The position numbers were made by a program, and so were the translations under genes. A DNA stretch of 42,461 nt from a virus, in the IMG/VR virus record IMGVR_UViG_3300044701_002106, positions 1-42,461 of that record; one strand, written 5' to 3'. The notes under the pieces were generated by a model. It was given only the letters and a program-made list of their open reading frames with translations, did not search any database and was not told the DNA's origin. Shown here in pieces: positions 801-42,461 of the stretch (position 1 is the first letter of the stretch; each line of letters starts with the position of its first letter).

Positions 801-926
801 GGCCTGCTTGATCGGATTATGAGTGCGGAACACCCCTTGTGGCAAAAGGGATCTGCTCGCAAGTTGCAGGCAAGTTGCGGGAACTTGCGGCAAGTTTTGT
901 CGTCCTGCGAATTGAGCGGATAAATA

Positions 927-999
927 TGGGGGATGCCGGGATCGAACCGGCCTGACTCCGATTATGAGTCGGGTGCTTTCACCAGATAGCTAATCCCCC
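927..999 (-). tRNA. tRNA with anticodon CAU (Ile2 or Met)
   Basis: The minus strand folds as a cloverleaf. The 7-bp acceptor stem is GGGGGAT with ATCCCCC, and the T arm is GCCGG-TTCGATC-CCGGC. The anticodon loop CTCATAA has CAU at positions 34-36. The D arm is weak (three pairs, GCT with AGC) but carries the GG of the D loop. No CCA is encoded. The anticodon arm core CGACTCATAATCG equals that of E. coli tRNA-Ile2, which reads AUA after lysidine modification, so Ile2 is favoured slightly over elongator Met. The tRNA lies 41 bases from the end of the integrase gene, so it may be a functional tRNA, an attachment site taken from the host tRNA, or both. Confidence 0.88.
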
Positions 1000-1040
1000 A
1001 GCGCCCAGCTGGGCCGGGCAACAGTACGGCAGTCCTTGGA

Positions 1041-2054
1041 TCAGCCCTGCCTCTTTTCAAGGACCTCAAAGCAGCGGTCCAGCTCCTCTGATTTCATGTG
1101 GACGTAGCGCTCGCAGGTTTTGGCATTGCGATGGCCAAGCCATGCGCAGATCTCCAGCGTCGTGCGCCCCGCGTTGCCAAGCGCTGATCCAACCGTGTGC
1201 CGCAGCGCGTGCATGGCCCTGGGCATGTCGATGCCGCAGCGGGCCAGCGCTTTGTCGACCTGGTAGTCCAACTGCTTGTACTTGAGGGTCCACACCCGCA
1301 TGTGCGGCATGGGCGGCAAATAGGGCTGGATCGCCTCCAAGGCCCTTGGCGTGAGGCGCAGCACCCGGTTGCCTTCTTTGTTGTCCTTCACGGCCTTGAA
1401 GAACCGCACAGTGCGCTTCTCAAGGTCCACGTCTTGCCCCTTGAGCCGGGCAGCTTCGCTGAAACGGCAGCCCATCTCGCCCAAGAACACCACCATTGCG
1501 GCCTCTTGGTGCTTGCCACGCATCAGCAGGTCGTGGCAGGCCAGCCGCATTTCCTCGTCACTCCACACTCGTTTCTGCAAGTTGTGGACCGGCAGGTTCT
1601 CGGAAATTGGTGGCAGTGACTTCACGCCACCGTGGATCTTGGCCATTCTCCGGATTTGCCGGAGCTTGCTGAGCTTGGCGTTGATCGTTTGGGCCTGGTT
1701 CCCGCGGCGGATGAAGTGGGCGATCATCCGCTGCGTGTCCTTGATCTCCACCTCTTGCACGGGAGTCTGGTGGCCCAGGAACTCAACGACCTGCCTGGTG
1801 TAATCCAAGGAGGTGCGCTCGCTGACCATGCCCGCGTAGTGCTCCTCAAGGAACGGCAGGGCGTCCCCAAGGGTGAATCCGTTCGTCAGCGCAGGAGGCG
1901 CCTCGATGGCCTTCAGGGCCTCTGCTAGGCGCTGCTCAGCGTGTTTCTTGCTGTCGCAGGACAACTGCCTGCGGCGGCCACCTGGGTAGACAAGGTTCAG
2001 TACCCATTGGCCGCTCGCGCGCCTGGTGATCTTCCAGGAGCTGGGAGCGTTCAT
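1041..2054 (-). CDS. int: Tyrosine recombinase / phage integrase
   Basis: A 337-residue site-specific recombinase. The catalytic set is visible: Arg197 in GEMGCRFSEAARL, the HALRH box with His282 and Arg285, His308 in AWLGHRN, and nucleophile Tyr317 in CERYVH. The N-terminal part (about 60-150) is the SAM-like core-binding domain, and a short basic N-terminus may bind arm sites. It would integrate and excise the phage genome at an attachment site, for which the adjacent tRNA is the obvious candidate. Integrase genes next to the RNA polymerase are known from T7-like cyanophages. The ATG start follows a stem-loop (2063-2080) and a CCACGACC leader element just after the upstream marR stop, so it is probably cotranscribed with the regulator. 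Confidence 0.95.
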   Translation of the reverse strand: MNAPSSWKITRRASGQWVLNLVYPGGRRRQLSCDSKKHAEQRLAEALKAIEAPPALTNGFTLGDALPFLEEHYAGMVSERTSLDYTRQVVEFLGHQTPVQEVEIKDTQRMIAHFIRRGNQAQTINAKLSKLRQIRRMAKIHGGVKSLPPISENLPVHNLQKRVWSDEEMRLACHDLLMRGKHQEAAMVVFLGEMGCRFSEAARLKGQDVDLEKRTVRFFKAVKDNKEGNRVLRLTPRALEAIQPYLPPMPHMRVWTLKYKQLDYQVDKALARCGIDMPRAMHALRHTVGSALGNAGRTTLEICAWLGHRNAKTCERYVHMKSEELDRCFEVLEKRQG

Positions 2055-21613: not shown

Positions 21614-21627
21614 TTACGACCCCGGAC
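21614..21627 (+). promoter_or_regulatory. Weak promoter-like element before the large virion protein
   Basis: TTACGACCCCGGAC has the left arm and the GACCCC spacer of the YTAC-N6-GTAG family but not the right arm (GGAC). It begins directly after the gp15-like stop, 46 bases ahead of the next start. A decayed or weak promoter is the best reading. Confidence 0.25.
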
Positions 21628-21659
21628 AACTCCGCGCATGTGCGGTGGAATAGGGGCAG

Positions 21660-24600: not shown

Positions 24601-26381
24601 CTTTTGAGGAGAAGAAGGCCAACGGGATGCTGGAAGGCTGGGACAAGCCGGATCCCGTCACCCTTGATGAGCGCGCCGCCTACGCCAAGCAAAAGCGCGT
24701 GGAGGCCGAGCAGGCCGGTGACGACACCCTTGCAAGGGAATGGCGCAATGCCGAGCGCCAACTGGAGCAGGCACGCATTGCTCGGACGATCGGCCAGCAG
24801 AACACCAGCCAGCAAGACATGTTTGGCGTGGGGCAGTACGACACATCAACGCCACTGCTGAACCAGCCGCCGGCGCCGTCGATCACGCTGGATCCAAACG
24901 CAAATCCAGCCAAGACAGCGCGTCAGCTTGGAGAGTTCAACCGCGGCAGGGGCCGGTGGGGCATCACCGAGCAGCAATGGCTAGACATCTTTAAGCGAAT
25001 CGGAGGCGTTCCCGACTGGTTTGACCTTGCAGGAGGTCAGGCCAACTGGGAAAAGCTGATGCAAGGCATGGATATGCCTGAGCTGGAGGCAAAGATCCAA
25101 GCGCTTGCCAGTAATTCGGCGCCTGCAGAGCGCGTGGCTAAGCCGCCGGCATTTACTTTCCCCGCCGATCTCAGCAAGTCCGCCCCGCGCTACGGCAGCG
25201 CCTCGCTGAAGTTTGCGAACGACCTGGACCGTGCGGCTTACATGCTGCGCAACGCGAGCAAGAAATCTGCCGGCGAGGGCCGTCTTGTTGCTGCCCTGGA
25301 GCAGGCGGGGTTTGACGTGGCTGCCGTGCGCCGTCATGGCGTGATGGTCAACCAGCAGATCAAGGCCCAGGTCAAGGCCGAGACCGGCTCAGCTGCCGCC
25401 CCGGTGGGCAAGCAGATGACCGTGCAGGTGGCTGATCAAGGCTTTGGCGGCGAAGGCATGGTCCTGCAGAGCGTTGACCCGATTCGCCAGAAGAAAGAGC
25501 GTGCGTTCCTGATGCTGGGCAACGCCGACCTGCGCATCCCGCCACAGGACAAAAAGCTCTGGGAGGGCGCACTCGACCAGATCATCAGGGACGTTGCAGG
25601 CGAACACGTTGCAATCGGTTTTGAGGACGTCCTGGGACGAAAGCCTCGCAGCGCCTCATGGGGTGGCGGCACCAAGCCCTCAGTCCAGGGCGGGCGCTAT
25701 GAGCTCAGCAACGATCTGATCGTGATCCAGGGGATGCTGGAGGCCTCGCCCGACAAGCTGGTCAGCGTTGCCCACCACGAAGCCTTCCATCGGGTGCAAT
25801 TCGGCCTGATGAATTTGGGCGAGATGAAGGCGATGGAAACCGCCTTTGGCCGGCAGCGGATCTTCGACTACTCCGGCATCCCCGAGCGCATGGAGATAGC
25901 GACCATCGAGCGGATGACAGTCGCCTACCAGACCTACGCAGAGATCAGGATGCAGGGGTTCAGTGATCCCTACGGCAAGCTGTTCCAGGAGGAGTTTGTA
26001 AAGGCCTTAGACAGCGCGCTGCCCAAAAAAGACGGCAAGTCGTGGGGCAACACGCTGACGGCAAATGTTGCCGGAAAGGTGCTGCGGGCCTTCGACAAGA
26101 TGCAGCAGCTCCTGGAGCGGTTCACCAACTACTGGAAGGGGAATGGCTTTACGTCAGCTGAGGACTTCTTCCGTCAGGTCTACGAGGGCGACATTGCTCG
26201 CAAGCGTGAGTTCAATGCGGCCAGCGAGGTGGTCACAAAGGACCAGGCCAGCCGCATGGAGTTTCTCGACAAGTGGACTACCGACAACGAGGGGGTCCAA
26301 ATGCAAATCACCAATGAAGTGGCCGGGCTCGATGCCCAGATAGCCGCGCTCAAGTCCAAAGCACTTTCTGGAGGCTGCTGA
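21660..26381 (+). CDS. Very large internal virion protein with ParB-like and HExxH motifs
   Basis: A 1,573-residue protein at the gp16 position. Residues 220-450 are linker-like, rich in Pro, Gln and Glu. A ParB/Srx-like segment spans about 535-640: FDVNAIQVDPGRFQFKQ, then TFVVNGHNRLAKAKELGV, the usual NGHHR-type box. A zincin-like motif HHEAFHR with HEAFH at about 1373-1377 lies near the C-terminus. Such mixes are known from phage polyvalent proteins that are injected with DNA. I see no lytic transglycosylase motif such as that at the start of T7 gp16. The start is TTG at 21660 or ATG at 21678; neither is clearly better. It probably enters the cell at infection. Confidence 0.8.
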   Translation: MSGKRSMPEQRRRQITGLEATPVLPEKPAAKAKAKPAGRHWSWYLTPAGVANEAKYFLKQAGQMNAGYRPTGTVSMPLMAPGSMFAPVQYQDPKGRVRYSTPLERQVVHGAAVQMPTDAALAAVNLAQRATNGWKPADPASTSVGRGLVEFNRTLAKAMDAKLPEEMSTYQKTWFSDIPALASASVLGGVAASRIVGPQAFGFFSPAAAKAARWVAGIGTESFITTLISNNLSGNIANAVSPNSPFAVTPQDDRLSSSLKSLLPNAGAEVAAGLGFLGLGKAVSGLSGLPNVARNLREQRLTDEVRAARQETVASGIQEEVSPGEYRFREEAQQQPSQPAAEPQPQTPAQARDQLIGEPAAAAVPSEPMAPGGAVQNPGAELPQANPAEDPWFDPALPEVDAVAMGVSRLDDQRLQELATGSGSVLPEVERHLQEQSQFDVVEGLDPAFMAMPAENLADPMVPMRQQWESTAVPHANLMSLASPDNGPLLYNRVRELTGRDFGEFTRQDVLDGIDALGQEGIALLPNRAGDGVQLFDVNAIQVDPGRFQFKQGVNAQGQQIGNSLQGVSKWSTDAEGVVQVWTDPTDGQTFVVNGHNRLAKAKELGVPSIRVEELPAGTAEQARAMGAISNIASGGGTAFDAAKFIREAGIQDAAQLEASGIPLSSGLGTQGLALSKLPDNLLQSAIDGDLSLPRALALGGSGLDGEKMNRVYQLAQGRDMTDRAFSELAQMASSAPKVKANQKNLFGDEEIDTTVIKAELAGKIRAELIGNKNLFKRVGRGRSVKQLADKGGTEVNAQQVIDAAGTAQAVLGEFDASKYAAGTPISQMLNEAAAQVANGAKSAPIVKRILQQLEAGAEAMPPAAVEAPAVAPVEQAAPEQQLLTDAQRKALKNQVIQKAVANGEVRPSATSIPELPARPLVDPAVAAKDLEANGLQAGSPGAQAIMDEIRLGTEYAQIDARRQFEIERANREAMGYDLMPFEEKKANGMLEGWDKPDPVTLDERAAYAKQKRVEAEQAGDDTLAREWRNAERQLEQARIARTIGQQNTSQQDMFGVGQYDTSTPLLNQPPAPSITLDPNANPAKTARQLGEFNRGRGRWGITEQQWLDIFKRIGGVPDWFDLAGGQANWEKLMQGMDMPELEAKIQALASNSAPAERVAKPPAFTFPADLSKSAPRYGSASLKFANDLDRAAYMLRNASKKSAGEGRLVAALEQAGFDVAAVRRHGVMVNQQIKAQVKAETGSAAAPVGKQMTVQVADQGFGGEGMVLQSVDPIRQKKERAFLMLGNADLRIPPQDKKLWEGALDQIIRDVAGEHVAIGFEDVLGRKPRSASWGGGTKPSVQGGRYELSNDLIVIQGMLEASPDKLVSVAHHEAFHRVQFGLMNLGEMKAMETAFGRQRIFDYSGIPERMEIATIERMTVAYQTYAEIRMQGFSDPYGKLFQEEFVKALDSALPKKDGKSWGNTLTANVAGKVLRAFDKMQQLLERFTNYWKGNGFTSAEDFFRQVYEGDIARKREFNAASEVVTKDQASRMEFLDKWTTDNEGVQMQITNEVAGLDAQIAALKSKALSGGC

Positions 26382-26384
26382 TCC

Positions 26385-29300
26385 ATGGCTAACTGCGACG
26401 ACCTGTTCCAACAAATCCAGGCCCTTGAGCAGCGCAAGCGCGACATCGAGAAGGCCCGCTACGTCCTGAACAGTCAGCGGCCCCCAGAGGACCCCGACCC
26501 TGCGACGAACTTTGTTTTCCGCGACCGCACCACGGGCCAGGAGCTGGAGACCAACTTCAACCAGATGTGGCGGGACATGACCGTCGACCCTGAGCGGCTG
26601 CAGGAATGGGCAGCACGGGCCGCTGGCTCACGCAGCAAGCCGATCGGCTCTGACGGCGAGTTTGAGAACTTCGCCCAGATGGTTGACCGGATGGGTGTCG
26701 ACAGCGCAGTGCAGCTGGGCTCGATGCTGCAGGCACTGACTGGCGACTGGGCCAAGTATTCCCCGTCCGACTTCAACGTCGTGACCGCCATTAACGACAA
26801 GGAGGCGTTCCAGGCCCGGCTGCTTGATGCCTTTGAGGAGGCCGGCATTGCGGTCAAGAAGGACCTGCTGGGCCAGGCCATTGCCCAGAACGTGGCCCCC
26901 TTCCTCGGGATCCTCAACAACGGCACCAAGGCCCAGGTGTTTGCCGACATCACGCGCAGCAACGTGATCAGCAAAATGCAGGACATCGCTGACGCGGTCA
27001 GCGAGACCGGCCTGCCTCCTAGCCGCGAGGCCAAGGCTGAGTTCGTTGATGCCTACATCAAGGCATTGTTTGCCCACCGCTCGCTGCGGGTGGCCAAGCG
27101 CCGCTCTGGTCAGCTGCTGCAGCAGTGGCAGCGGGTGATGGGCGAGGACCTTGAGATGCCGGGCTCCATCTGGGAGCAGACGGGAACTGATGCCAAGGCT
27201 GAGGTTGGCCAGATCGCAGAGGAGCTGATTGCCGCCACGCCTGCGGACCTGGTGGGCCCGGACAGCATCGCGGCCAAGGTCATTGATGCAGCCAACAAGG
27301 GGCCCAGCGGGCAGCTGGAGCTGACTGAGCTGATTGATGCGGCCAAGGTTGATGGCATCGACCCGCTGGCCAAGCTCGACAAGGGCTGGGACTGGAAGGC
27401 GCAGGCCCGGGGCTACTACAAGGACTCGATCCTTTTCGCCCCCAAGACGCAGGTGGTGATGAACTACATGAGCCAGAAGCTGGTCTTCATCGCTGAAGGC
27501 CTGAAGAAGGCTGCAGGCAACGGCCCCTTGATCCGGGAGGGGGCCACGTCATTCCACCGCGACCTGCTCAAAAGCAACATTGAAGGCGCCAGGGCCGCGG
27601 CGGAGGCCGCAATGCGGGCCGAGGAGATCATCAAGCAGTCGTGGTCGGAGTCCCTGCGCAAGGGTTTCTTCAATGCTGAGGCGCCCTTTGCGGGCAACCC
27701 TGATGCCTTTGGCGTCAGCACTGGCGCCATCCCGATTGAGGAGCAGTACAAAATCGCCCAGCAGGTGCTGGCGGATCCGTGGGACGCCAAGCGACTGCCT
27801 ATCCAAATCCGGGACAAGTGGTTGGTTAGCGAAAAGCTGCTGACCAACTACCTGCAGGAGAAGGCCCTGTCCAAGATGGCTGGCCGCGAGATCCGGCTGC
27901 CCATCACCGATTCCCTGCAGATGCTGGGCGCCGTGGACCAGCGGGCCGGCTTGCGGGTCTACATGACCGACCGGGCCAACGACTTCTTCATCCAGTCCTT
28001 TAAGGAGGGCCCGGAGTGGAGCTGGGCTCAGCGCCGGCAGTACGTCGACCAGAAGCTGCAGGACGTGCTGTACACGGCAGAGCCGAGCGACGCGCAGATC
28101 GCCAACTTCCGCAAGCAGTACGACCTGGGGGAGGAGTTCAGCAACGACCAGATTGCTGCCTACATCGCTTCCGAGAAGGTCGGCGTGCCTGTGCTGGCTG
28201 ACCCGGGCAACCGCAAGTCGTGGGACTTCTCGCAGTACGCCCGCATGCAGAACAGGCCCCAGGGGGGCATTGGCCAGTTGGCCGATGACGCCATGCGGCC
28301 GATTCGCAAGAACGACTACGGCGACATGCTGATCAGCTTCTGGCGTTCGCCTTGGAACCAGGCGCTGTGGGACATGAGCCTTGGTGCTCCGCCCATTGCC
28401 AACACGGCTCGCATCGTTGGCAAGATCCGCGCTGGCGAGGAGATCCCCCCTCAGCTGCTGGCCGCTACCCAGGCGGCGTGGGTGATGTTTGGCGGCATGG
28501 TGGCGATGTTTGCCTCGCTCGACAATGAGGTGGGCAAGCTCACCGGCAGCGCACCGCTTGATGCGCAGAAACGCGCCGCCTGGAAGACCGCCGGCAACCG
28601 GGAGAACAGCGTGTTTGGCATCCCGCTCAACTTGGGTGGTTTGCCGGTCCTCAACACCCTGTTCCTGTGGAAGGACCTCAAGGAGGCCATGGTCACTGGC
28701 ATGCACTCCAAATGGGACATGCAGCAGACCTGGTGGCAGCTGATGCAGGTCGGCACCGGCCAGATCATGCGTCAAACCGGCTTCCGTTCCCTGCAGATGC
28801 TCAGCGAGGCGCTGACCGAGCGGACCCCTGAAGCGTTCCAGCGCCTGGCGGGCTTCATTGCCAACGGCCAGGTCAACCCCTTCTCCGGCGCTCTGCGCAG
28901 TGTGGAGGGCGTGCTGGGCCTGGGCGCTGACACCGTGCAGCGCAACCGCAAGCTCAACCCCAGCGACGCCTATCTGGTGGAGCAGATTGGGCGCGACGAT
29001 CAGTTGGAGCAGATGCGGGAGGGCCTGCAGGCGTTCCTGATCAACTTCAGCCCAATGCTGTCTGCCTTGGCTGGGGCCACGCTCAAGGAGACCGACTACC
29101 TAGGCCGCAACATCACGCCCTGGAACGACTGGATCTTCAAGAACGAGTACCCGGCGGGCGTGCCGATGCACTGGAACGCCGAGAACAAGGTCTATTCCAC
29201 GCTCAACCGCTTGGGACTGCTGCAGCCGCCTGACGAGCTGATGACCGGCAGGATGCACGGCGTCCCCCTGGACCGCGATGCCGAGAAGGAGTTCAACTAT

Positions 29301-29774
29301 TACGTCGGCTTCACCCGTGGCGGGAAGTACAGCGACCATCCGCTGTTTGGAGGCAAGACGCTGTACCGAGTGCCGGGCAAGGTCGACTACATGGTCGAGA
29401 ACAGCTTCCAGGAGCAAACCGTTGGCATCCCGGTTGACCTGTCCGACCTACTGGATCGCGCCACAAACGGCAAGACGTTGTTTGAGGCAAGCAACTACGT
29501 CATCAACAGCTCTGAGTTCAAGAGGTGGGAAGCCAACCCGGCAACTACTACGGACCCGCGGGTAAAGGACATGCCTGCAACGGTGTACCGGGAGCAACCC
29601 GGCCCGTGGGTGCTGGCCCAGTTGCGGGACTACTACGCCGCCCTGGCCCGAGAGCGCATGGAAACCTCTGACAGCAAGGCCGCTGCTGAGATGCGGGCGC
29701 TGAGGGCAGAGCGTCTGAAGATGCAGTCGATTGAGAGCGCTGAACGCAAGGCCGCAATCGTGACTAGCCCATAA
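26385..29774 (+). CDS. Large internal virion protein (gp16 C-terminal-like)
   Basis: A 1,129-residue, mainly helical protein. It begins DDLFQQIQALEQRKRDIEKA, a coiled start, and contains long amphipathic helices and a hydrophobic stretch (AAWVMFGGMVAMFASL, about 698-713). The segment MRPIRKNDYGDMLISFWRSPWNQ and the end with LRDYYAALARERMET are of the kind seen in cyanophage gp16-like proteins. With the 1,573-residue neighbour it seems to share the role of T7 gp16, forming the inner-membrane part of the ejection channel. GGAGG lies 10 bases before the ATG, and the gene starts 3 bases after the upstream stop. Confidence 0.8.
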   Translation: MANCDDLFQQIQALEQRKRDIEKARYVLNSQRPPEDPDPATNFVFRDRTTGQELETNFNQMWRDMTVDPERLQEWAARAAGSRSKPIGSDGEFENFAQMVDRMGVDSAVQLGSMLQALTGDWAKYSPSDFNVVTAINDKEAFQARLLDAFEEAGIAVKKDLLGQAIAQNVAPFLGILNNGTKAQVFADITRSNVISKMQDIADAVSETGLPPSREAKAEFVDAYIKALFAHRSLRVAKRRSGQLLQQWQRVMGEDLEMPGSIWEQTGTDAKAEVGQIAEELIAATPADLVGPDSIAAKVIDAANKGPSGQLELTELIDAAKVDGIDPLAKLDKGWDWKAQARGYYKDSILFAPKTQVVMNYMSQKLVFIAEGLKKAAGNGPLIREGATSFHRDLLKSNIEGARAAAEAAMRAEEIIKQSWSESLRKGFFNAEAPFAGNPDAFGVSTGAIPIEEQYKIAQQVLADPWDAKRLPIQIRDKWLVSEKLLTNYLQEKALSKMAGREIRLPITDSLQMLGAVDQRAGLRVYMTDRANDFFIQSFKEGPEWSWAQRRQYVDQKLQDVLYTAEPSDAQIANFRKQYDLGEEFSNDQIAAYIASEKVGVPVLADPGNRKSWDFSQYARMQNRPQGGIGQLADDAMRPIRKNDYGDMLISFWRSPWNQALWDMSLGAPPIANTARIVGKIRAGEEIPPQLLAATQAAWVMFGGMVAMFASLDNEVGKLTGSAPLDAQKRAAWKTAGNRENSVFGIPLNLGGLPVLNTLFLWKDLKEAMVTGMHSKWDMQQTWWQLMQVGTGQIMRQTGFRSLQMLSEALTERTPEAFQRLAGFIANGQVNPFSGALRSVEGVLGLGADTVQRNRKLNPSDAYLVEQIGRDDQLEQMREGLQAFLINFSPMLSALAGATLKETDYLGRNITPWNDWIFKNEYPAGVPMHWNAENKVYSTLNRLGLLQPPDELMTGRMHGVPLDRDAEKEFNYYVGFTRGGKYSDHPLFGGKTLYRVPGKVDYMVENSFQEQTVGIPVDLSDLLDRATNGKTLFEASNYVINSSEFKRWEANPATTTDPRVKDMPATVYREQPGPWVLAQLRDYYAALARERMETSDSKAAAEMRALRAERLKMQSIESAERKAAIVTSP

Positions 29775-35214: not shown

Positions 35215-35430
35215 GGCCTCGGCTTCAGTTGCCTGCAGGGACTCCAGCCAGCTGTCGAGCGCAGCCCTGCTGGCGGTGCTGAGGGAGAGCTTGAGGAACT
35301 TGCGGAGCTCTTTCGGACAACGCACGAACACACTGGCCTGCTTTCCATAGGCGATGTAAAAACGTCCGTTCCAGTCCCTGCCGGTTTCAACGGACATGGC
35401 GCCAGGTAGGCGGAGGGTGTCGCGTTTCAT
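35197..35430 (-). CDS. Small hypothetical protein, last gene of the leftward block
   Basis: A 77-residue basic protein. A beta-rich N-terminal half (DWNGRFYIAYGKQASVFVRC) is followed by helices (PKELRKFLKLSLSTASRAAL, DSWLESLQATEAE). The start-GRFY-VFVRCP-L layout faintly recalls ribbon-helix-helix or small nucleic-acid-binding proteins, but is not diagnostic. ATG overlaps the TGA of the peptidase gene by one base. No function assigned. Confidence 0.55.
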   Translation of the reverse strand: MKRDTLRLPGAMSVETGRDWNGRFYIAYGKQASVFVRCPKELRKFLKLSLSTASRAALDSWLESLQATEAEASDVAA

Positions 35431-36143
35431 CAGCTAAACGTCCAGCCCCAGCCACCGCCGTCGATGTCCCAACGGGGCAGCAGGTTTTTCCAGCTGTACT
35501 GCTCGTTCTTGCCGGTGCCTGTGCCCGTCTTGGCCCAGCCGCCATTGACCAGATCAATGGAGCCGTAGGGGTCATGCACCAGGGCGTGGGTCTCGGTGTA
35601 CCCGCGCAGCACGATGTAGTGCCCGCCGCCCTTGGGGGCCGACACGGGGCCGTGGTGCAGCACGCCAATGGCCACCGGATAGCCCTTGTCGATCTCCCGG
35701 ATCAGGTCCTGCTTGTGCAGGTTGGTCCTGAATCGGTGGCGCGCACCCAGTTCGGTCAGTGCCTGCTGGTGGGCAACAGCTGAGGTGGTGTCGCCGTGCT
35801 TTTTGACGAACGGCAGGTACTTGAGGTCGTCATCCAGGCGCTGGCCGGTGGCTGGGATGCGAGCCCCCAGGTAGCGGAGGCACATGGCGATGCTGCTGGT
35901 CTGGCATTGCCGCCAGCCTTCAGGGCCGTTGTCCAGCTGGCTCATGTATTCCACGGGCAGCGGGTTACCCACCGTGAAGACAGGCTTCTGCCGATAGGTC
36001 TCGATCCAGTCGGCGTCGTCCTCCAGGAGCTCGGGGCACTTGGAGGCCAGCGTCAGGTAGAGGAGCTCTACGCCGCGCTTCTGCGTGGGTTCGCCTTGGT
36101 AGTAGGCGAAGAAGTTGGCAAAGCCTTGAGTGGTGAGCTTCAT
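35430..36143 (-). CDS. C39-like papain-fold peptidase, lysin candidate
   Basis: A 237-residue protein. Residues 75-200 have the papain-like triad of C39-type peptidases: Cys80 in GWRQCQTSSIAMCL, His175 in GGGHYIVLRGY, and Asp191 in VHDPYGS. Residues 10-52 form a helical module (FFAYYQGEPTQKRGVELLYL, CPELLEDDADWIETYRQ) that is related to residues 16-56 of the GH73 lysin at 8763-9356. C39-like domains with this N-terminus are common in cyanobacteria and their phages; cleavage of peptidoglycan cross-links is the likely role, though a polyprotein or host target cannot be excluded. It is in the replication block, unlike typical late lysins. Confidence 0.8.
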   Translation of the reverse strand: MKLTTQGFANFFAYYQGEPTQKRGVELLYLTLASKCPELLEDDADWIETYRQKPVFTVGNPLPVEYMSQLDNGPEGWRQCQTSSIAMCLRYLGARIPATGQRLDDDLKYLPFVKKHGDTTSAVAHQQALTELGARHRFRTNLHKQDLIREIDKGYPVAIGVLHHGPVSAPKGGGHYIVLRGYTETHALVHDPYGSIDLVNGGWAKTGTGTGKNEQYSWKNLLPRWDIDGGGWGWTFS

Positions 36144-36159
36144 TACGCCCCCGTATCAC

Positions 36160-36885
36160 TTACAAGGTAGGGGGCTCCCACAACACTGGCCTCTCCTTCT
36201 GCTCGTCGTATTCACCGCGGCGAAGGATGCGAGCGCAGCGGGCCATCTGCAGTGCGGTTTCAGCGTTGCTGCCGTTGTCCTCGTAGGCAATGACAACCGC
36301 AGTCCAGAACTGCTTTTCGTCCTTGCAGCCGTCCAGGATTTGCGCAGCTTTCTTTGGGCCGACCTTGGGGCAGCCGGGGTAGCCGTCAGTGGTGTCGCCC
36401 GTCAGCACCTGGGTGAAGAAAGCCATGTCGGCCTGCTGCTGGCTGATGGTCTCCAGCTCGTCGCCGGTGAGGTGCATCCCAGCAATGGTCTTGAGATCCT
36501 TGTCCCGGCTGACGATGATGTCGCGGCCGCTGGCCATGATCCCAACCACGTCATCGCCCTCAATGCCAGGAAAGGAATGGGATACCCAGGTCTTGCGGGC
36601 CCAGTCCTTCAAAGCGGCAAACCCAGCAGGGCGGCGTTGCTTGCGGCGGTTGGCCTTGTACTGGGGGTAGACGGCGTAGCGGAAGTTGCTGATGTCCCCA
36701 AAGGCAAGGATCACCGGCGTCTGCGGAATGATGTCTTCAATGCGAGCAATCTCCTGGTCAAAGGCGTCCTTGGCCTGAGACAGGTCAACCTCATAGGTCC
36801 ACTTGTCGGGGGCCCATTCGGTCTCGTATTCGGCTCCTGCTATGCAGCGGAACAAGAAGGTTTCCGCGTCGACGATGATTCGCAT
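36160..36885 (-). CDS. 5'-3' exonuclease (T7 gp6-like, FEN family)
   Basis: A 241-residue nuclease matching T7 gp6. Conserved acidic motifs are MRIIVDAETFLFR at the start, VILAFGDISNFRYAVYPQYKANR, PGIEGDDVVGIMAS, IIVSRDKDLKTI and TGDTTDGYPGCPKVGPKKA, the helix-hairpin-helix. It would remove RNA primers and degrade host DNA. The ATG MRIIVDA is chosen because codons above it encode Pro/Arg-rich sequence of the overlapping zinc-ribbon gene in another frame. The end MARCARILRRGEYD matches T7 QMARILRFNEYN. No DNA polymerase gene precedes it, unlike T7. Confidence 0.93.
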   Translation of the reverse strand: MRIIVDAETFLFRCIAGAEYETEWAPDKWTYEVDLSQAKDAFDQEIARIEDIIPQTPVILAFGDISNFRYAVYPQYKANRRKQRRPAGFAALKDWARKTWVSHSFPGIEGDDVVGIMASGRDIIVSRDKDLKTIAGMHLTGDELETISQQQADMAFFTQVLTGDTTDGYPGCPKVGPKKAAQILDGCKDEKQFWTAVVIAYEDNGSNAETALQMARCARILRRGEYDEQKERPVLWEPPTL

Positions 36886-37085
36886 GGGGCGTACCAGGGG
36901 TAGAGGGGGTGAAAGGAAGGGCTCGTGCCAGCGATGACGTGCTCTGGCGGTTGAGCGGTGTAATAGCGGTGGCTGCAGGTCAGGCAGTGCCTGCGGCGGA
37001 TGCGGAAGCCGCGCCTGGCGGTCTTGGTAAGAACAACGGTGACGCTGTGGCTGCCGCACTTAGGGCAGGGCAGGTCAGCTCTCAT
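36840..37085 (-). CDS. Zinc-ribbon protein 1 (NrdR N-terminus-like)
   Basis: An 81-residue protein whose first 50 residues form a zinc ribbon: CPKCGSHSVTVVLTKTARR, then RRRHCLTCSHRYYT. The spacing C-x2-C, about 24 residues, C-x2-C, with the RRRxC knuckle and RYYT after it, closely follows the NrdR N-terminal domain, but no ATP-cone follows. A second protein of this type lies at 39438-39635. The C-terminal 30 residues overlap the exonuclease start in another frame (46 bases) and may be noise. It may bind DNA or phage/host polymerase. Confidence 0.7.
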   Translation of the reverse strand: MRADLPCPKCGSHSVTVVLTKTARRGFRIRRRHCLTCSHRYYTAQPPEHVIAGTSPSFHPLYPWYAPCESSSTRKPSCSAA

Positions 37086-37299
37086 CGACCTTGCGCTGCG
37101 GGTCTTCCACCTCAAGCAACAGACGATCGGCGATCTCGTTGATGGCCAGGTGGCAGATGCGTGCTTGCCCTGGGTCTGGCGCCCAGGTGCGGATGATCGA
37201 GCTGATCTCATGCACAACGGCTTTCATCCGCCGGCGATCGTCAATGCTGTACTCACCCAGGCTCCAGTAGAGGTCGGTCAGGTTGTTGAGCAGGGTCAT
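37075..37299 (-). CDS. Small helical protein in the primase-exonuclease interval
   Basis: A 74-residue protein: MTLLNNLTDLYWSLGEYSID, a long helix RRRMKAVVHEISSIIRTWAP, then ARICHLAINEIADRLLLEVE. Probably a small helical bundle; I do not recognise it. Start overlaps the preceding stop by 4 bases (ATGA) and its end overlaps the zinc-ribbon start by 11 bases. The tight packing implies one polycistronic, coupled unit. Confidence 0.6.
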   Translation of the reverse strand: MTLLNNLTDLYWSLGEYSIDDRRRMKAVVHEISSIIRTWAPDPGQARICHLAINEIADRLLLEVEDPQRKVDES

Positions 37300-37523
37300 T
37301 TGATTGGTGTGACGGTTGCGTCGGGCCAGCGGTTTTTGCAGTACCGGACTGCCTTTGCCCTGGTGGCGGCGGGGATTGTCACGCGCATGGGCTGCGTGCC
37401 AGGGCGTTTGACTTCAAGCCGGAATGGCTTGGTCTTTTCGTGCTCATGCGGGCGGCTGACCCCAGCTCCGAGGATTGGCTCAGGACCTTCTTGAGGCAGG
37501 CGGCCGGGGACCATCCAACTCAT
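37296..37523 (-). CDS. Small basic hypothetical protein
   Basis: A 75-residue protein with basic composition. The first half is loop-like (MVPGRLPQEGPEPILGAGV), the second carries KTKPFRLEVKRPGTQPMRV and a helix TRAKAVRYCKNRWPDATV. The C-terminal half could be a small nucleic-acid-binding fold. Not recognised. It overlaps genes on both sides (1 and 4 bases). Confidence 0.55.
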   Translation of the reverse strand: MSWMVPGRLPQEGPEPILGAGVSRPHEHEKTKPFRLEVKRPGTQPMRVTIPAATRAKAVRYCKNRWPDATVTPIK

Positions 37524-37732
37524 TACTCCTTCTCCGCTTCAAGGATGTGCTGGCAGGCGCGGATGTAGCCGTCCCAGTAGGTGACCAAGTGCTTGGCATC
37601 GTGCTTGTAGGCGTCGTTGTAGTGGGCATAGGCAAACTCCAGCAGCCGCTTGATCACGCCAAGCGAGAGGTCAAGCTGCCGATCGCTTCGATCCGGCGTC
37701 GTTGAGTCGAATGTTTCGGAGGTCGTAGACAT
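37523..37732 (-). CDS. Small acidic helical protein
   Basis: A 69-residue protein with a Thr/Ser/Asp-rich start (MSTTSETFDSTTPDRSD) and two helices rich in Tyr and His: LSLGVIKRLLEFAYAHYNDA and LVTYWDGYIRACQHILEAE. Function unknown. It overlaps the end of the upstream gene by 62 bases in another frame, more than the other pairs, so one of the two might be misjudged. Confidence 0.5.
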   Translation of the reverse strand: MSTTSETFDSTTPDRSDRQLDLSLGVIKRLLEFAYAHYNDAYKHDAKHLVTYWDGYIRACQHILEAEKE

Positions 37733-37895
37733 TGGTGTTCCGTTGGGTAGAGCCCTGATCCCAAAGGACCGTGGCGGAGTTGGTGTTGACGTAGGAGACG
37801 TGGCCCTTTCTCCATCCGTCCGCTGTGTAGAAGTGGACTGCCTGGCCCTTGCCTAGCTGCTTCCAGCTGATCAGCTCAGTACCTGGTCTTCCCAT
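37671..37895 (-). CDS. Small SH3-like beta protein
   Basis: A 74-residue protein starting MGRPGTELISWKQLGKGQAV. The core KGQAVHFYTADGWRKGHVSY, VNTNSATVLWDQG and NVYDLRNIR alternates like an SH3-type or KOW beta barrel (G-x-V-x-W). Such domains often bind protein or nucleic acid; the target is unknown. It overlaps the primase-helicase end by 25 bases. AACAGAA precedes the ATG with no strong ribosome site. Confidence 0.58.
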   Translation of the reverse strand: MGRPGTELISWKQLGKGQAVHFYTADGWRKGHVSYVNTNSATVLWDQGSTQRNTNVYDLRNIRLNDAGSKRSAA

Positions 37896-39517
37896 TTCTG
37901 TTCCAGCGCTTGTGTTTCCTCGTCGAAGACGAAAGAGCCTGCATAGCCACATCGGCCGAGCATCCTGTTTTTGAGGCAGTAGGAGTGGGTCAGCTGCGTG
38001 CCGCGTTTGCGGCCCAGGGCCCAGATGGTGTCTGCCAGTTGAACCACGGAATGTGAACCCCTGATGTCATGCAGCTCAGGGACACCTCCGTCTTCCATGT
38101 TCTTCACCTGGCTGCTGCCGCGGTTTAGGTGGCTGATGGCGAACACCGTGCATTTGGTGGCCGCAATGAAGGAACGAATCTTGGTAATCAGCGCATCCAG
38201 CTGCCGAACGTCCTGCGCCAGGCCGGAGCCAATGATCGTCAGGTGATCGAGGTAGATGTGCTGGCATCCCAGCGAGCGAACCATGTAGTTCATTCGCTGC
38301 AAGATCACGTTCTCGTCGAGCGAGCCGAAGTGATCGAACAGCTCAAGCATCCCGGAGCCGGTGACGAACTTGTCGGCCTGCGCAATGTGCTGCAGCTGCT
38401 GATCCGTCAGGCCTGCGTAGGACTGCCGGGCGTGCAGCTGGAGGCCTGCTGCCATGCCGACGAAGCGAAAGATCGCCTCCTCCGCTGTTTCCTCAAGGCC
38501 AATCCAGCCGACCTTGATTCCGTTCTCCATGTCGTGGAGCGCCAGCGCCCGGGCAAAGGTGGTCTTGCCAATGCCTGAGCCAGCGATCAGCACGATCAAC
38601 TGGTTGTCGTAGAACGGTGTCTTCTGGTTCCACCAGGTGAACGCACAGTTGAGCGCTGTGCGCTGCGCCGGCTTGAGGACGATGCCTTCGTAGGCTGATG
38701 CTGGCTTGATGCCATCAGGCCGCAGCTGCTTTGCGGCGTAGATGGATTCCTTGACGGCCTGCCCGCCGAGCTCCTGTAGGCAATCGTTGGCGTCCTTGCA
38801 GGGGAACACCACGCGACGCACCTGCCCAGCCTCAAACAGCTCCACCAGGGCGCTGGCCGCGGCCTCGCCTGGCTCGTCGTTATCGGTGGCGATGTAGACG
38901 ATCTTGAACTGGTTGAACTGGTCGAGGTGCTTGCGCACCCAGGCAGCAGCTGACTGCGCACCGTTGGGAACAGAGATGCCAACGACCTTGCCGTTGCTGG
39001 CGGCGTAAATCGAAGGCGCATCAAACTCCCCCTCGCAAATGGCAATCGCGTCGTGATGGCTGGGGTTAGCCAGGTGATGGCCGAAGCCGACCACGTTTTT
39101 GGCGTCACCCTTCCAGCTGATGCGCTTGTCATCCGAGCGGAACTTCTGGGCAATGACCTTGCCCGCAGCATCCCGGTACTGAAAGACCACGCCATCTGCC
39201 GTGCGCATGATCCCGTACTGCTCCAGCACCCGCTTGGACAGCCCCCTGTAGGACTGATCCGTCCACGCCTCAATGGTGAGCGTGGTCATTGGCGGAATAG
39301 GGTCCGATCGGGTGGGTCGGACTTCTTCCGTGGTTTTGGTGTAGGTGTTGCAGACGAAGCAGTAGGTGTGGTCGGTGTAGATCGCAAGGCCGTCACTGCT
39401 GCCGCAAGAGCAAGCCCCATGGCCAATAAACCGAGATTCATTCCTCGACTCCTTGCTGAAGCGGGAGATCAAGGATGAAGCCACGGGACTTTCCAGCATT
39501 AACGGCGAGGACTTCAT
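37871..39517 (-). CDS. Primase-helicase (T7 gp4-like)
   Basis: A bifunctional replication protein of about 548 residues (T7 gp4A has 566). The N-terminal zinc finger is ACSCGSSDGLAIYTDHTYC then FVC. The TOPRIM primase motifs are AIAICEGEFDAPSIYAA and IVYIATDNDEPGE. The RecA-type helicase has Walker A LIAGSGIGKTTFARA, GWIGLEETAEEAI, the Walker B-type HIYLDHLTI and VFAISHLNRGSSQ. A start at 39517 (MKSSPLML) or 39499 (MLESPVA) fits; both lie inside the zinc-ribbon gene upstream in another frame and neither has a clear ribosome site. It unwinds and primes DNA for a polymerase that is not encoded here. Confidence 0.93.
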   Translation of the reverse strand: MKSSPLMLESPVASSLISRFSKESRNESRFIGHGACSCGSSDGLAIYTDHTYCFVCNTYTKTTEEVRPTRSDPIPPMTTLTIEAWTDQSYRGLSKRVLEQYGIMRTADGVVFQYRDAAGKVIAQKFRSDDKRISWKGDAKNVVGFGHHLANPSHHDAIAICEGEFDAPSIYAASNGKVVGISVPNGAQSAAAWVRKHLDQFNQFKIVYIATDNDEPGEAAASALVELFEAGQVRRVVFPCKDANDCLQELGGQAVKESIYAAKQLRPDGIKPASAYEGIVLKPAQRTALNCAFTWWNQKTPFYDNQLIVLIAGSGIGKTTFARALALHDMENGIKVGWIGLEETAEEAIFRFVGMAAGLQLHARQSYAGLTDQQLQHIAQADKFVTGSGMLELFDHFGSLDENVILQRMNYMVRSLGCQHIYLDHLTIIGSGLAQDVRQLDALITKIRSFIAATKCTVFAISHLNRGSSQVKNMEDGGVPELHDIRGSHSVVQLADTIWALGRKRGTQLTHSYCLKNRMLGRCGYAGSFVFDEETQALEQKWEDQVLS

Positions 39518-39635
39518 GGGTGTGATAGTCGGCACCGCAGCCCCGGCATCGACGGTGCCGCAGGACATACTCCGGCTTGTTGTAGGTGTACGAAACGGTG
39601 GAATCGACCGATCCGCAGTGAGGGCATTTGATCAT
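39438..39635 (-). CDS. Zinc-ribbon protein 2 (NrdR N-terminus-like)
   Basis: A 65-residue protein. MIKCPHCGSVDSTVSYTYNK and RHRRCRGCGADYHTHEVLA give a C-x2-C, about 24 residues, C-x2-C ribbon with the basic RHRRC knuckle, as in the other zinc-ribbon at 36840-37085. Its tail SRGFILDLPLQQGVEE overlaps the primase-helicase start region. The ATG is coupled to the RusA-like stop (ATGA). It could bind the origin, the phage RNA polymerase or a host enzyme; nothing in the sequence decides. Confidence 0.75.
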   Translation of the reverse strand: MIKCPHCGSVDSTVSYTYNKPEYVLRHRRCRGCGADYHTHEVLAVNAGKSRGFILDLPLQQGVEE

Positions 39636-39976
39636 TGCCAAATGACGGTGAAGTTGATGTGTGCGTCTTTAAGTGAGCTTTTGCGCCACTTCATTGCGAC
39701 CGTCCCGATCACCTTCACGTTGTCGTCCGCCCAGATGAGGCCATTGCCTGCATCGAGCAGGGCGCCAAGCCTGTTGTCGAGGTCGCCACGGGCTGGCCCG
39801 TAGAAGGTGACAACCAAGCAGTTGATGTGATCGAGGGGAGGCAGGGTCCAGTGCTCTCCCATCAAGGCCCTGGCTTTTTTGATCCAGTCCTTGTAAGCCG
39901 CTTCCATGTAGGGCCTGGCCTGGCCCATGTATGTGCGCGGGCGAGCCTTGGACTTAGGCGCCAGCGGCAGGTGCAT
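39632..39976 (-). CDS. RusA-like Holliday junction resolvase
   Basis: A 114-residue nuclease. The family signature is visible: KSKARPRTYMGQARPYMEAA at the start, then LVVTFYGPARGDLDNRLGAL and LLDAGNGLIWADDNVKVIG, with the catalytic Asp residues in GDLDN and ADDN. RusA resolves four-way junctions; here it stands where T7 has the gp3 endonuclease, so it probably frees branched DNA before packaging. ATG at 39974-39976 lies 1 base past the SSB stop; an ATG 5 codons earlier would overlap SSB by 14 bases. Confidence 0.88.
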   Translation of the reverse strand: MHLPLAPKSKARPRTYMGQARPYMEAAYKDWIKKARALMGEHWTLPPLDHINCLVVTFYGPARGDLDNRLGALLDAGNGLIWADDNVKVIGTVAMKWRKSSLKDAHINFTVIWQ

Positions 39977-39977
39977 G

Positions 39978-40547
39978 TCAATCGACTGCATTGAACACGC
40001 AGCTGTCGTCCACGAAGCCACCGGGCACGGATTCAAAGACGCACTCCGATTTCTTCTCCTCGCTGACGTACTCCACAAGGTCGACCACCTGGGCCTGCTT
40101 GGGCTGAAACGTCAGGCCGGCACCTGTGCCGCGGCTGGGCCAGGCGTAGATGTCAAAGCCGATGATCACCTTGGACCCGTTGCCCACTAGGCGCTTGGCG
40201 TCCCATGGATTGCGGGCGGCATCAAAAACAGAGGGGCCCTCGCTGACGGTGCCGTCTTTGCGGGTCCACATTGGCAGCTTGAAGCTGACCACGGTGCGTG
40301 AACGCGGTGAGTCTGGATCAGGCTTGGCGGGGAACCAGTTATTGGACTTTTTGGTTTCGCCGTGGAACTCCTTGTACATGAGCTCCATCTCCTCGATCCA
40401 CGCCATGTGGGTCTTGTTGTCGTTATCGAGGACCAGCTCAACGCTCCAAGTGGGCGGCTTGCTGGGGTCGAACTTGTTTTCCCGGGCTTCGCCTAGGAGC
40501 TTGAACCAGCGGCACTCCGCCAGAGGGGTAACGAGCAGCTTGGGCAT
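39978..40547 (-). CDS. Single-stranded DNA-binding protein (T7 gp2.5-like)
   Basis: A 189-residue OB-fold-type protein in the gp2.5 position, between RNA polymerase and the nuclease/primase genes. It begins KLLVTPLAECRWFKLLGEAR, has VELVLDNDNKTHMAWIEEME, TVVSFKLPMWTRKDG, VIIGFDIYAWPSRGTGAGL and TFQPKQAQVVDLVEYVSE. These are the segments typical of cyanophage gp2.5 homologues. The C-terminus VPGGFVDDSCVFNAVD is acidic, but less so than in T7. The ATG follows ACCACGACCAG, another CCACGA element. Confidence 0.88.
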   Translation of the reverse strand: MPKLLVTPLAECRWFKLLGEARENKFDPSKPPTWSVELVLDNDNKTHMAWIEEMELMYKEFHGETKKSNNWFPAKPDPDSPRSRTVVSFKLPMWTRKDGTVSEGPSVFDAARNPWDAKRLVGNGSKVIIGFDIYAWPSRGTGAGLTFQPKQAQVVDLVEYVSEEKKSECVFESVPGGFVDDSCVFNAVD

Positions 40548-40621
40548 CTGGTCGTGGTCATGGGGCCCACAGAAATTACCTCGTATTCCACGGGGGTGTA
40601 GAGGTCGTACGGGAGTCTCAT
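40493..40621 (-). CDS. Possible 42-residue protein between RNA polymerase and SSB
   Basis: An ATG at 40619-40621 overlaps the RNA polymerase TGA (ATGA) and opens a 42-codon frame: MRLPYDLYTPVEYEVISVGP, then MTTTRCPSCSLPLW. Its last 55 bases overlap the SSB gene in another frame. The ATGA coupling and 71 otherwise unused bases favour it; the short length, the promoter-like element inside it and the Ser-rich end argue against it. It may only be an mRNA leader. Confidence 0.35.
   Translation of the reverse strand: MRLPYDLYTPVEYEVISVGPMTTTRCPSCSLPLWRSAAGSSS
40588..40601 (-). promoter_or_regulatory. Phage promoter candidate before the SSB operon
   Basis: The minus strand reads CTACACCCCCGTGG, which matches CTACACCCCCGTAG at 5984-5997 except for one base. 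It ends 41 bases upstream of the SSB ATG. A promoter here would drive SSB to exonuclease separately from the RNA polymerase gene. Confidence 0.4.
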
Positions 40622-42461
40622 GAGTACAGGTATGGATTTGTACCCAGCAGTCCTGGTTGCAGGGTCCCGATATAAGGCGGATCTGAGAGTGAGACCCCAG
40701 TATTCATTTGGATTTCCTCCCGAGCGACCTGCAGCCAGTTGGTTCTGTGCATGTCCCGGAAGGCGCTGTGCAACATCGTATGAAGGACCGTCGCGTCGTT
40801 CGTATGAGTCGCAAAGCAGTCGTGGTTTGTCAGCAATGGCATGCCGAGCTCCCCGGCCCTGTAGATGACCTGCTGGCACAACGCAGCGTCAAAGGCATGC
40901 ACGAAGTTGGCCCCGATGCCCTTGTTGGCCTGCGTGGCGGACAGCGGGGAGTCGACGGGCTGGTCCTGAATGGTCAGGCTGATCTTTCGCCCGAACATCA
41001 GGGTCTGCACCTTTCGCTTGGTGGGCTCCCTGTCAGCCAGCCGCATCGGCCAGCCCATGGGCGTGGTCCACTCAAACGGGTGCCCAGCGCTCATCACCAG
41101 CCGGCAGGACTTCTTGAGCCAGGTCTTGACCTCGATGCAGGGCTGCACCACCGCCTTCAGCTCAGCCCATAGGTGGCTGGCCAGGTACTTGGCTGGAATG
41201 GCCACCCGGAAGGCGAACTCGTCCAGCGGGACATAGCCCAGATGCTCATCGAGCGCGTCCACCAGGCTGTCGCAGAGGCTCATGTAGGAGCCGCCGTAGG
41301 GCGTGGCCAGGATTGGCCCCTTGACCAGGCCACGGTCAATGCCGCGGCCCAGCCAGAGCTCCGCCAGGGCCTTGCTGCGCTCGTCCCCCATCTCCAAGTC
41401 GACGGTCAGGCGCCGGACCACCTGCTCGGCGATGACTGAGTACAGGTCCCGAGGGGTTGTGCCGAACAGGTTGCACAGTCGGCCGACCTTGGCGTCCCGC
41501 ACCAGCGTGGCCAGGATCCCGCAGCCGCTGGTGGTCTGGTCAAACCGGATCGGCACACCGGTGGCGCCTGTTTCCAGAGCCTGCTGCAGGCCCTTGCACA
41601 TCTGCAGGAACTGCCAGGGGTCCTTGGCCGAGCGCCATAGCTCCAGCCGCCCCAGCGGGTCAGCCGCAGCGGCCAGCATCTGGTCCTTGTGCTGCTGCCC
41701 CCAGCGCAGGCGCTCACTCCAGTAGCTGCGGCTGAGCCCGTAGTGGCCGGCCGCGGCCTTGAAAATCCAGTCAATGCCCTCGTCAGTGGCCGGGGCCTGC
41801 TGCTTAAACGACAGCAGCGCCTTTTCGTAGTCGGGCCCCTGATGGGTGACGTACTTGTTCCCGCTGTAAATGCGGCCCCTGTGGTCAGCGTGATAGGCCT
41901 GCCAGACGGTGCGGCCTGCCAGCTCCTCGGCTGATTGCAGTGCCCGCTCGATCTTGATTCGCCTGGTCCTGTTCTGCTCCCTGTCCCGGTGGGCCATGGC
42001 CGCCAGCCGGTTGCGGGCCCGCAGCTCCTCTGCGGTGGGTTCATTGCCCAACCGCTCTGGCACCTCCATGGGCGCCCTGCGGCAGGGGTACAGCCCCTCG
42101 ATGCCGTTCTCCCAGGCCGTGCGCTGCAGCTCCACCATCTCCCCGTCCACCACCAGGGGCGTGGCCTGCAGGTGGTTGACCGCACTGACAAAGGCCGACA
42201 GGTCAGCCCGGCGGTAGTGCTCGATGGCGCTGCTGTCTTTCTCCTCGTTGTCCTGGATCGGCACCCGGATCAGGCACTCCTGGTTGCCCAGCACGCCGCC
42301 GCCATACAGCCCAGGCCATGGCTCAGGCGGGCAGACCATGGCGCTGTGCGAGGCCTTGTAGGTGCCACGCGGGCACTCGCGGATGAACTGCTCAGCCTCC
42401 TCGCTGGGCAGCACGAAGAACGGGTAGCCCCTGCCGACCCGGTGCTTGACCACCTTCACCA
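40618..42461 (-). CDS. Single-subunit (T7-type) RNA polymerase, main part
   Basis: The C-terminal 613 residues of the phage RNA polymerase; the gene begins at 695 across the junction. Numbered on the closed 803-residue protein: the DxxGR loop is DHRGRIYSG near 382, motif A is RFDQTTSGCGILATLV with catalytic Asp497, motif B is KGPILATPYGGSY with Lys570 and Tyr578, and motif C is NHDCFATH with Asp737. All catalytic residues of T7 RNA polymerase have counterparts. The enzyme would transcribe the middle and late genes from the YTAC-N6-GTAG elements. T7 ends with FAFA; this protein ends GTNPYLYS. Confidence 0.97.
   Translation of the reverse strand, partial: VKVVKHRVGRGYPFFVLPSEEAEQFIRECPRGTYKASHSAMVCPPEPWPGLYGGGVLGNQECLIRVPIQDNEEKDSSAIEHYRRADLSAFVSAVNHLQATPLVVDGEMVELQRTAWENGIEGLYPCRRAPMEVPERLGNEPTAEELRARNRLAAMAHRDREQNRTRRIKIERALQSAEELAGRTVWQAYHADHRGRIYSGNKYVTHQGPDYEKALLSFKQQAPATDEGIDWIFKAAAGHYGLSRSYWSERLRWGQQHKDQMLAAAADPLGRLELWRSAKDPWQFLQMCKGLQQALETGATGVPIRFDQTTSGCGILATLVRDAKVGRLCNLFGTTPRDLYSVIAEQVVRRLTVDLEMGDERSKALAELWLGRGIDRGLVKGPILATPYGGSYMSLCDSLVDALDEHLGYVPLDEFAFRVAIPAKYLASHLWAELKAVVQPCIEVKTWLKKSCRLVMSAGHPFEWTTPMGWPMRLADREPTKRKVQTLMFGRKISLTIQDQPVDSPLSATQANKGIGANFVHAFDAALCQQVIYRAGELGMPLLTNHDCFATHTNDATVLHTMLHSAFRDMHRTNWLQVAREEIQMNTGVSLSDPPYIGTLQPGLLGTNPYLYS
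42335..42461. repeat. Right copy of the 127-bp exact terminal repeat
   Basis: Identical to 1-127. It lies within the RNA polymerase gene, codons about 149 to 190 of the open 613-codon part being continuous with the N-terminal portion at the other end. Only one copy should be counted in the genome. Confidence 0.97.

Follow-up and report, generated by a model that had tools for sequence, protein, structure and literature searches.

How is the DNA of a phage copied when its genome follows the T7 plan and no gene for a DNA polymerase can be recognised in it? The question is raised by the replication locus (positions 36,160 to 39,517, around the genes for a gp4-type primase-helicase and a gp6-type exonuclease) of IMG/VR virus record IMGVR_UViG_3300044701_002106, which was analysed over its full 42,461 nucleotides and is called the window below. 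A model-generated reading of the letters and open reading frames (the sequence-only reading) had held that gene 5 was missing and that a host polymerase must be recruited, perhaps through five small proteins. The absence is confirmed: the window genome is really without a recognisable DNA polymerase gene. We consider it fairly probable that the window represents a complete T7-like phage of a gene-5-less clade, the DNA of which would be copied by a host polymerase, the likeliest candidate being Pol III together with its clamp.

Absence of a recognisable DNA polymerase gene

The phage is T7-like, of the Autographiviridae type, and its genome appears to be complete, in agreement with the claim of a closed genome: the ends of the 42,461-base record share an identical overlap of 127 bp, the removal of which leaves 42,334 bases (G+C content 61.5%), and the frame of a T7-type RNA polymerase runs through the join of the circle (815 residues from stop to stop; main part 40618..42459, minus strand, wrapping over the join into 3-695; PF00940 5.9e-53, phrog_414 2.7e-111). 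The other replication genes named in the sequence-only reading were likewise all found on the minus strand by profile matches, namely a gp2.5-type single-stranded DNA-binding protein (SSB; 39978..40547; phrog_112 1.3e-12) with the tail ...DDSCVFNAVD, a RusA-like Holliday junction resolvase starting at an internal ATG (39632..39991; PF05866 8.7e-8, phrog_140 1.1e-13), the gp4-type primase-helicase (37871..39568; phrog_239 2.6e-118, DnaB_C 7.3e-16 and Toprim) with the tail ...KWEDQVLS, and the gp6-type 5'-3' exonuclease (36160..36885; PF02739 7.4e-9, phrog_107 2.4e-53). Their order along this strand is RNA polymerase, SSB, RusA, gp4, s1–s5, exonuclease and C39 peptidase, s1–s5 being the five small overlapping genes (36840-37895) that had been described between gp4 and the exonuclease and are indeed there.

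Six-frame searches of the whole record with the profiles of PolA (PF00476), PolB (PF00136) and PolC-type (PF07733) polymerases gave no match at E<=10, bearing out the statement that no polymerase is encoded anywhere, and no DNA polymerase was named when the main predicted proteins and ten additional frames, eight being antisense, were scanned with Pfam; three antisense frames of at least 250 amino acids were covered by the six-frame polymerase searches alone. As a control of sensitivity, PF00476 matched 13/13 polymerase-bearing T7-like phages, cyanophages included, at 8.6e-33 to 4.3e-54. PolA was found in none of 50 related records at E<=1 (46 from IMG/VR, together with S37-C6, S-SRP02, S31-C1 and P-SCSP1a) and in none of 34 further relatives at E<=10 (33 from IMG/VR, and S38-C3), which makes 79/79 related IMG/VR records PolA-less, and with them five related genomes from GenBank; many of the IMG/VR records are fragments, but six measure 42.5-43.1 kb, and the GenBank genomes are among those searched. 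The gp5 family A polymerase, usual but not universal in Autographiviridae, is thus missing from the window, P-SCSP1a and S37-C6 alike.

Could the phage population carry a gene 5 that the record has lost through assembly or deletion? There is next to no chance of this, because three near-identical contigs (L001, L002 and L003; gp4 identity 99-100%), which bear three different sample prefixes, one of them possibly that of the window's own sample, show the same 983-bp interval between gp4 and the exonuclease; the uniform lack of PolA among the 79 relatives, fragmentary as many of them are, also speaks against it. The gap between the two genes ranges from -12 to 1840 bp in the family (74 of 82 loci, those in which both genes were found), and amounts to 2.2-2.7 kb in P-SSP7, Syn5 and HTVC011P. 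The 1.8-kb intervals in L073 and L074, the two widest of the family, were considered as places for a polymerase and rejected: PF00476 matches neither, and that of L074 consists of small frames. The two genes abut (gap -12 to -6) in a subclade of the window family (L042-L050, L053, L056), and they overlap by 4 bp, with no genes between, in P-SCSP1a, a phage of the MPP-C group of cyanopodoviruses.

A divergent polymerase that the profiles fail to recognise, for instance within a large structural-looking protein, is very improbable. Its possible seats are proteins of 773, 1573 and 1129 amino acids (19292-29774) without a Pfam match at E<=0.1; these, however, sit in the structural operon, at a position which we take to be that of the internal core proteins of T7, and no polymerase profile matched at E<=10, whereas real T7-like polymerases reach 1e-32 or better. 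A hidden polymerase is also among the options kept for MPP-C in PMC9860041.

Probable use of a host polymerase and its putative contacts

Because the genome appears to be complete and polymerase-less, the use of a host polymerase can be inferred from gene content, and to this extent the earlier proposal of host synthesis is supported. The phage would keep its own RNA polymerase, SSB, gp4, RusA and exonuclease; gp4 would open and prime the fork, at which a host DNA polymerase (in the likeliest case Pol III and its clamp) would synthesise DNA in the presence of the phage SSB, and two features seen in relatives, SSB tails of the host type and s1 tails resembling clamp motifs, might mark the contact surfaces. 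The preference for Pol III over Pol I comes by analogy from these relatives and not from the window's own sequence, and the tails are only candidate surfaces, neither being present in the window.

That host Pol I is recruited instead, copying behind a fork opened by gp4, seems unlikely, although it would arguably demand the least change of partner, gp5 being a family A enzyme that resembles E. coli Pol I (PMC12593628); it was also the first option proposed for MPP-C (PMC9860041), and the phage exonuclease belongs to the Pol I 5'-3' exonuclease family. What argues against it is that the SSB tails ending in xPF in relatives copy the ending of the host SSB, a replisome hub, and that a DnaB-type helicase is missing from S-SRP02 and S38-C3, which points to a wider use of the host replisome in those relatives.

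The SSB endings differ between the groups. An ending in [DN]F is seen in 86/87 SSBs of the polymerase-bearing set (75/76 when only pieces that also show the polymerase are counted; of the 93 loci in the group, 82 have a polymerase match in the piece, and P-SSP7 is counted twice), and in 0/60 of the window family, 0/17 of the added s1 loci (some of which repeat window-family contigs), 0/4 of the helicase-less relatives and 0/18 of MPP-C, truncated ends being left out of these and of the gp4 tail counts. Fisher values on these tails ignore kinship and were not used. When the SSBs are clustered at 70%, 10/11 polymerase-bearing clusters end in [DN]F and one (S45-C18) in PF, while 10/19 of the others end in [IVLMF]PF and 9/19 in something else; seven of the 154 distinct SSBs, shorter than 150 amino acids (DEVPF, FDAQG, AEKSF, DDIPF, EDDDF, DQDDF, NEEEF), are outside this clustering. 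Host SSBs resemble the phage xPF tails, with a PF ending in 30/30 genomes (e.g., DEIPF, EEEVPF; this listing holds PF-ending frames only, the lengths of which agree with SSB frames) and in 7/7 Prochlorococcus-type loci of four genomes (one locus also being in the 30-genome set), and the xPF ending is found in 4/4 SSBs read from helicase-less relatives. The chi subunit of the clamp loader is not known from cyanobacteria, and because of this the SSB tail may have another partner there, such as PriA. In E. coli, the C-terminal tail of SSB binds many partners, chi included (PMC11253446). The nearest relatives of the window have SSB endings of the same form as its own, and a tail of the type VF[ND][AE] is common to the window, the L042-type and the L063-type phages.

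Several observations on the tails weigh against the proposed contacts. The window SSB itself ends in VFNAVD, neither [DN]F nor host-like xPF, and xPF tails occur in only 11/60 members of its family, with 15/60 ending in EKSF, AKSF or EKAF; MPP-C SSBs (EEEF, SNEF, DYSF) remain near the old form, with a final F that follows acidic residues in EEEF and SNEF, so that the ending has not in every case changed greatly. The polymerase-bearing MedDCM-OCT-S45-C18 (L093, 915-1502) has an SSB ending in SIPF, the only one of the set to depart from [DN]F. The whole SSB pattern perhaps rests on two losses only. As for gp4, the tail of which binds gp5 in T7 (PMC12593628), 31-35 residues follow LKNR in the family as against mostly 38-39, and the endings vary, 37/80 family proteins still having a final F; a loss of acidity was considered and discarded, since the last 20 residues carry on average a net charge of -3.7 in the family and -1.3 in the polymerase-bearing set. 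Clamp motifs, moreover, do not discriminate Pol III from Pol I.

The five small proteins fare unevenly as recruiters. s1 (37671..37895, minus strand, as are all five), a 74-amino-acid protein overlapping the end of gp4, is confidently predicted to be a Tudor/SH3-like barrel (AlphaFold2 pLDDT 87.6); its model reaches Z up to 8.3 with Tudor-type folds and Foldseek E values not below 0.03, and the comparison with PDB sequences and folds gave nothing beyond Tudor/SH3-like, with no Foldseek match at E 0.001. s2 (37523..37732; 69 amino acids) is kept in many relatives (56/97 loci, E<=0.01), s3 (37296..37523; 75 amino acids) and s4 (37075..37299; 74 amino acids), both without an assigned function, have homologues in 21/97 loci each, those of s4 including S-SRP02 (49%), and s5 (36840..37085), starting at an internal ATG, is an NrdR-like zinc-ribbon protein (PF22811 5.6e-8). 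Homologues of s1 were found in 58/97 loci searched, and in 0/80 P-SSP7-like, 0/13 polymerase-bearing reference and 0/28 MPP-C loci, several of these being fragments; the phage collection holds s1 in S37-C6, S38-C3 and S-SRP02 only (E<=1e-3) and s2 in S37-C6 and S-SRP02 only (below E 1e-4). In several relatives, s1 carries a variable linker ending in QxxLF or QxxLxL (QQSLF, QSELF, QTPLDLGL, QASLGL), which comes close to the bacterial beta-clamp motif QL(S/D)LF (PMC9690074). This clamp-type pattern, set after the tails had been seen, occurs in 4/10 lineages (one chosen tail each), and four were reached in 0/20000 shuffles. Speaking against a clamp contact in the window itself, its s1 ends in RLNDAGSKRSAA, with no QL(S/D)LF-type peptide, and QLDLSL in s2 was rejected as a clamp site (its Q is lost in close relatives, and 1642/20000 shuffles do as well).

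Whether s1–s5 instead do something else, such as host takeover or transcription, with gp4 or SSB binding the host enzyme directly, is a question on which we are evenly divided; this would be compatible with copying by a host polymerase and opposes only the role that the sequence-only reading gave to the small genes. That role is weakened by P-SCSP1a, which has no interval genes, and by the abutting subclade, in which neither s1 nor s2 has a match; s1 has none in any of the 21 family loci with a split gp4 (s2 being found in ten of them), and s5 is of the NrdR zinc-ribbon type. It is favoured by the association of s1 and s2 with the polymerase-less clade, no match having appeared in those polymerase-bearing loci that were screened for s1, by the clamp-like s1 tails of some relatives, and by the presence of s1 in S-SRP02, which lacks gp4.

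The helicase itself varies among relatives. DnaB_C has no match in S-SRP02 and S38-C3 (complete by their records) or in L100-L102 (fragments). In four of these five, a protein is kept in the place of gp4 (L081 18208-18864, L092 6492-6947, L100 2157-2810, L101 3956-4462), of 151-218 amino acids where annotated, for which no family or fold was found (the AlphaFold2 model of the L100 homologue is poor, pLDDT 42); the matches of the S-SRP02 p29 profile to PDB sequences, mainly TALE repeats over 36 positions, were taken as chance or low complexity, and "loader-like" is a guess. In 21 loci (L042-L050, L053, L056, L063-L072), gp4 takes the form of two frames divided near residue 145-149, the second-frame ATG lying just upstream of the first-frame stop at the three junctions read (L045, L053, L065). 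For S-SRP02 open reading frame 14 (L081 8515-9219), which is labelled a Pol III beta subunit in its record, the clamp match is weak (17.2 bits, the cut-off being 27); the frame also matches phrog_947 at 2e-8 and the RusA-type phrog_3007 at 4.2e-8, and has a 45% homologue in L024. PF02768 matches 0/12 records, the window and S-SRP02 included.

It is tempting, if rather speculative, to suppose that the clade dismantled the four-protein T7 replisome stepwise: gene 5 and the polymerase-linked SSB ending would have been lost first, several lines would then have gained an SSB ending copied from that of the host and, on the small Tudor-like adaptor s1, a tail that binds the clamp, and the S-SRP02/S38-C3 branch would also have given up gp4, its replication being left to the host replisome and a new loader-like protein.

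Host and remaining genome

The host is probably a high-GC picocyanobacterium. A tRNA-Met (926..1000, minus strand; ARAGORN) adjoins a tyrosine integrase (1041..2054, minus strand; PF00589 6.7e-15), and is a possible attachment site and host clue on sequence grounds: it matches over 76 bp at 100% identity in one of 201 picocyanobacterial genomes, and at E<=0.001 in 69/201. Downstream of the exonuclease lies a C39-type peptidase/endolysin (35430..36143, minus strand; PF13529 1.5e-16, phrog_10051 6.9e-56); that of S-SRP02 is described as closest to Cyanobium (PMC8790148). The T7-type virion module is present, with a head-tail connector, Gp10A-like capsid, tube, nozzle, T7 tail fibre and T7 terminase RNase H domain. 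The 1573-amino-acid protein (21660-26381), without a Pfam match, matches phrog_21 ("portal protein", 7.7e-45) at residues 531-798, apart from the portal gene proper (10858-12474).

Relatives and known systems

Polymerase-less T7-like cyanophages are already known in kind, the window being a further lineage of them. The view of the sequence-only reading that known T7-like phages all rely on their own polymerase is not supported: 18 isolated cyanopodoviruses without an identifiable DNA polymerase, designated MPP-C, were described in 2022 (PMC9860041), where the options offered are recruitment of Pol I, recruitment of Pol III or a polymerase that escapes recognition. By term counts, the main text of that paper mentions neither S-SRP02, nor MedDCM, nor freshwater, and no earlier report of a polymerase-less S-SRP02/MedDCM G9 group was found in the open-licence literature searched.

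In the gp4 tree (33 rows, dereplicated from 93), a 100/100 branch (length 2.08) separates 17/17 window-family rows from the 15 polymerase-bearing ones, with which P-SCSP1a is placed; the absence of the polymerase accordingly takes two changes on this tree, one change sufficing in 14% of bootstrap trees; given the long branches, the exact place of P-SCSP1a is unsure, yet it lies outside the 100/100 window family. Membership of MPP-C was considered for the window, which shares the lack of DNA polymerase, and rejected: gp4, one of nine core genes, sets it apart from P-SCSP1a, and its 42,334 bases exceed the 37.3-37.9 kb of that group. As judged from these sequences, the window phage is in a clade separate from MPP-C and wholly polymerase-less. 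Its replication and interval genes are common to it and the S-SRP02-like cluster/MedDCM group G9 (with S-SRP02: RNA polymerase 40%, exonuclease 43%, RusA 41%, SSB 32%; s1, s2 and s4 shared).

Polymerase absence in a second T7-like cyanophage lineage, of at least 79 IMG/VR contigs, means that surveys using DNA polymerase as a marker would miss these phages, and the relatives form a graded series for testing replisome contacts via short C-terminal peptides. A warning is also due on labels: "DNA polymerase I" sits on what are, by homology to the window exonuclease, gp6-type exonucleases in the records of S-SRP02 (L081, 20001-20741) and S37-C6 (L080, 20647-21378), that of S-SRP02 being a 246-amino-acid protein that matches 5'-3' exonuclease families. 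The S-SRP02 paper built a tree with a gene called DNA polymerase (PMC8790148), presumably this mislabelled exonuclease.

Coliphage T7 (the T7-like Kvp1 being the phage compared) shares with the window the gene plan and the gp1, gp2.5, gp4 and gp6 functions, but has gp5, bound by acidic gp4 tails (PMC12593628). MedDCM-OCT-S37-C6 (AP013546) and S31-C1 (AP013547), of the Autographiviridae genera Oinezvirus and Nohivirus, are like the window in gp4 (74% and 67% identity), in a similar order of replication genes and in the lack of PolA, and differ in being marine fosmids with no known host and in their shorter intervals (500 and 570 bp). The Synechococcus phage isolate S-SRP02 (MW822601) and MedDCM-OCT-S38-C3 (AP013548), also without PolA, have homologues of its RNA polymerase, SSB, RusA, s1 and exonuclease, whereas they lack a DnaB-type helicase, carry a 218- or 151-amino-acid protein in the place of gp4, and have SSBs ending in EEIPF and DDMPF. 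The MPP-C cyanopodoviruses (P-SCSP1a, P-SCSP1u, P-SCSP2) show the same combination of RNA polymerase, SSB, gp4 and exonuclease with no DNA polymerase, but hold another position on the gp4 tree and are 37.3-37.9 kb long vs 42.3 kb, P-SCSP1a having no interval genes. In Bacillus phage SPP1, according to PMC9860041, host Pol III works with phage-encoded helper proteins.

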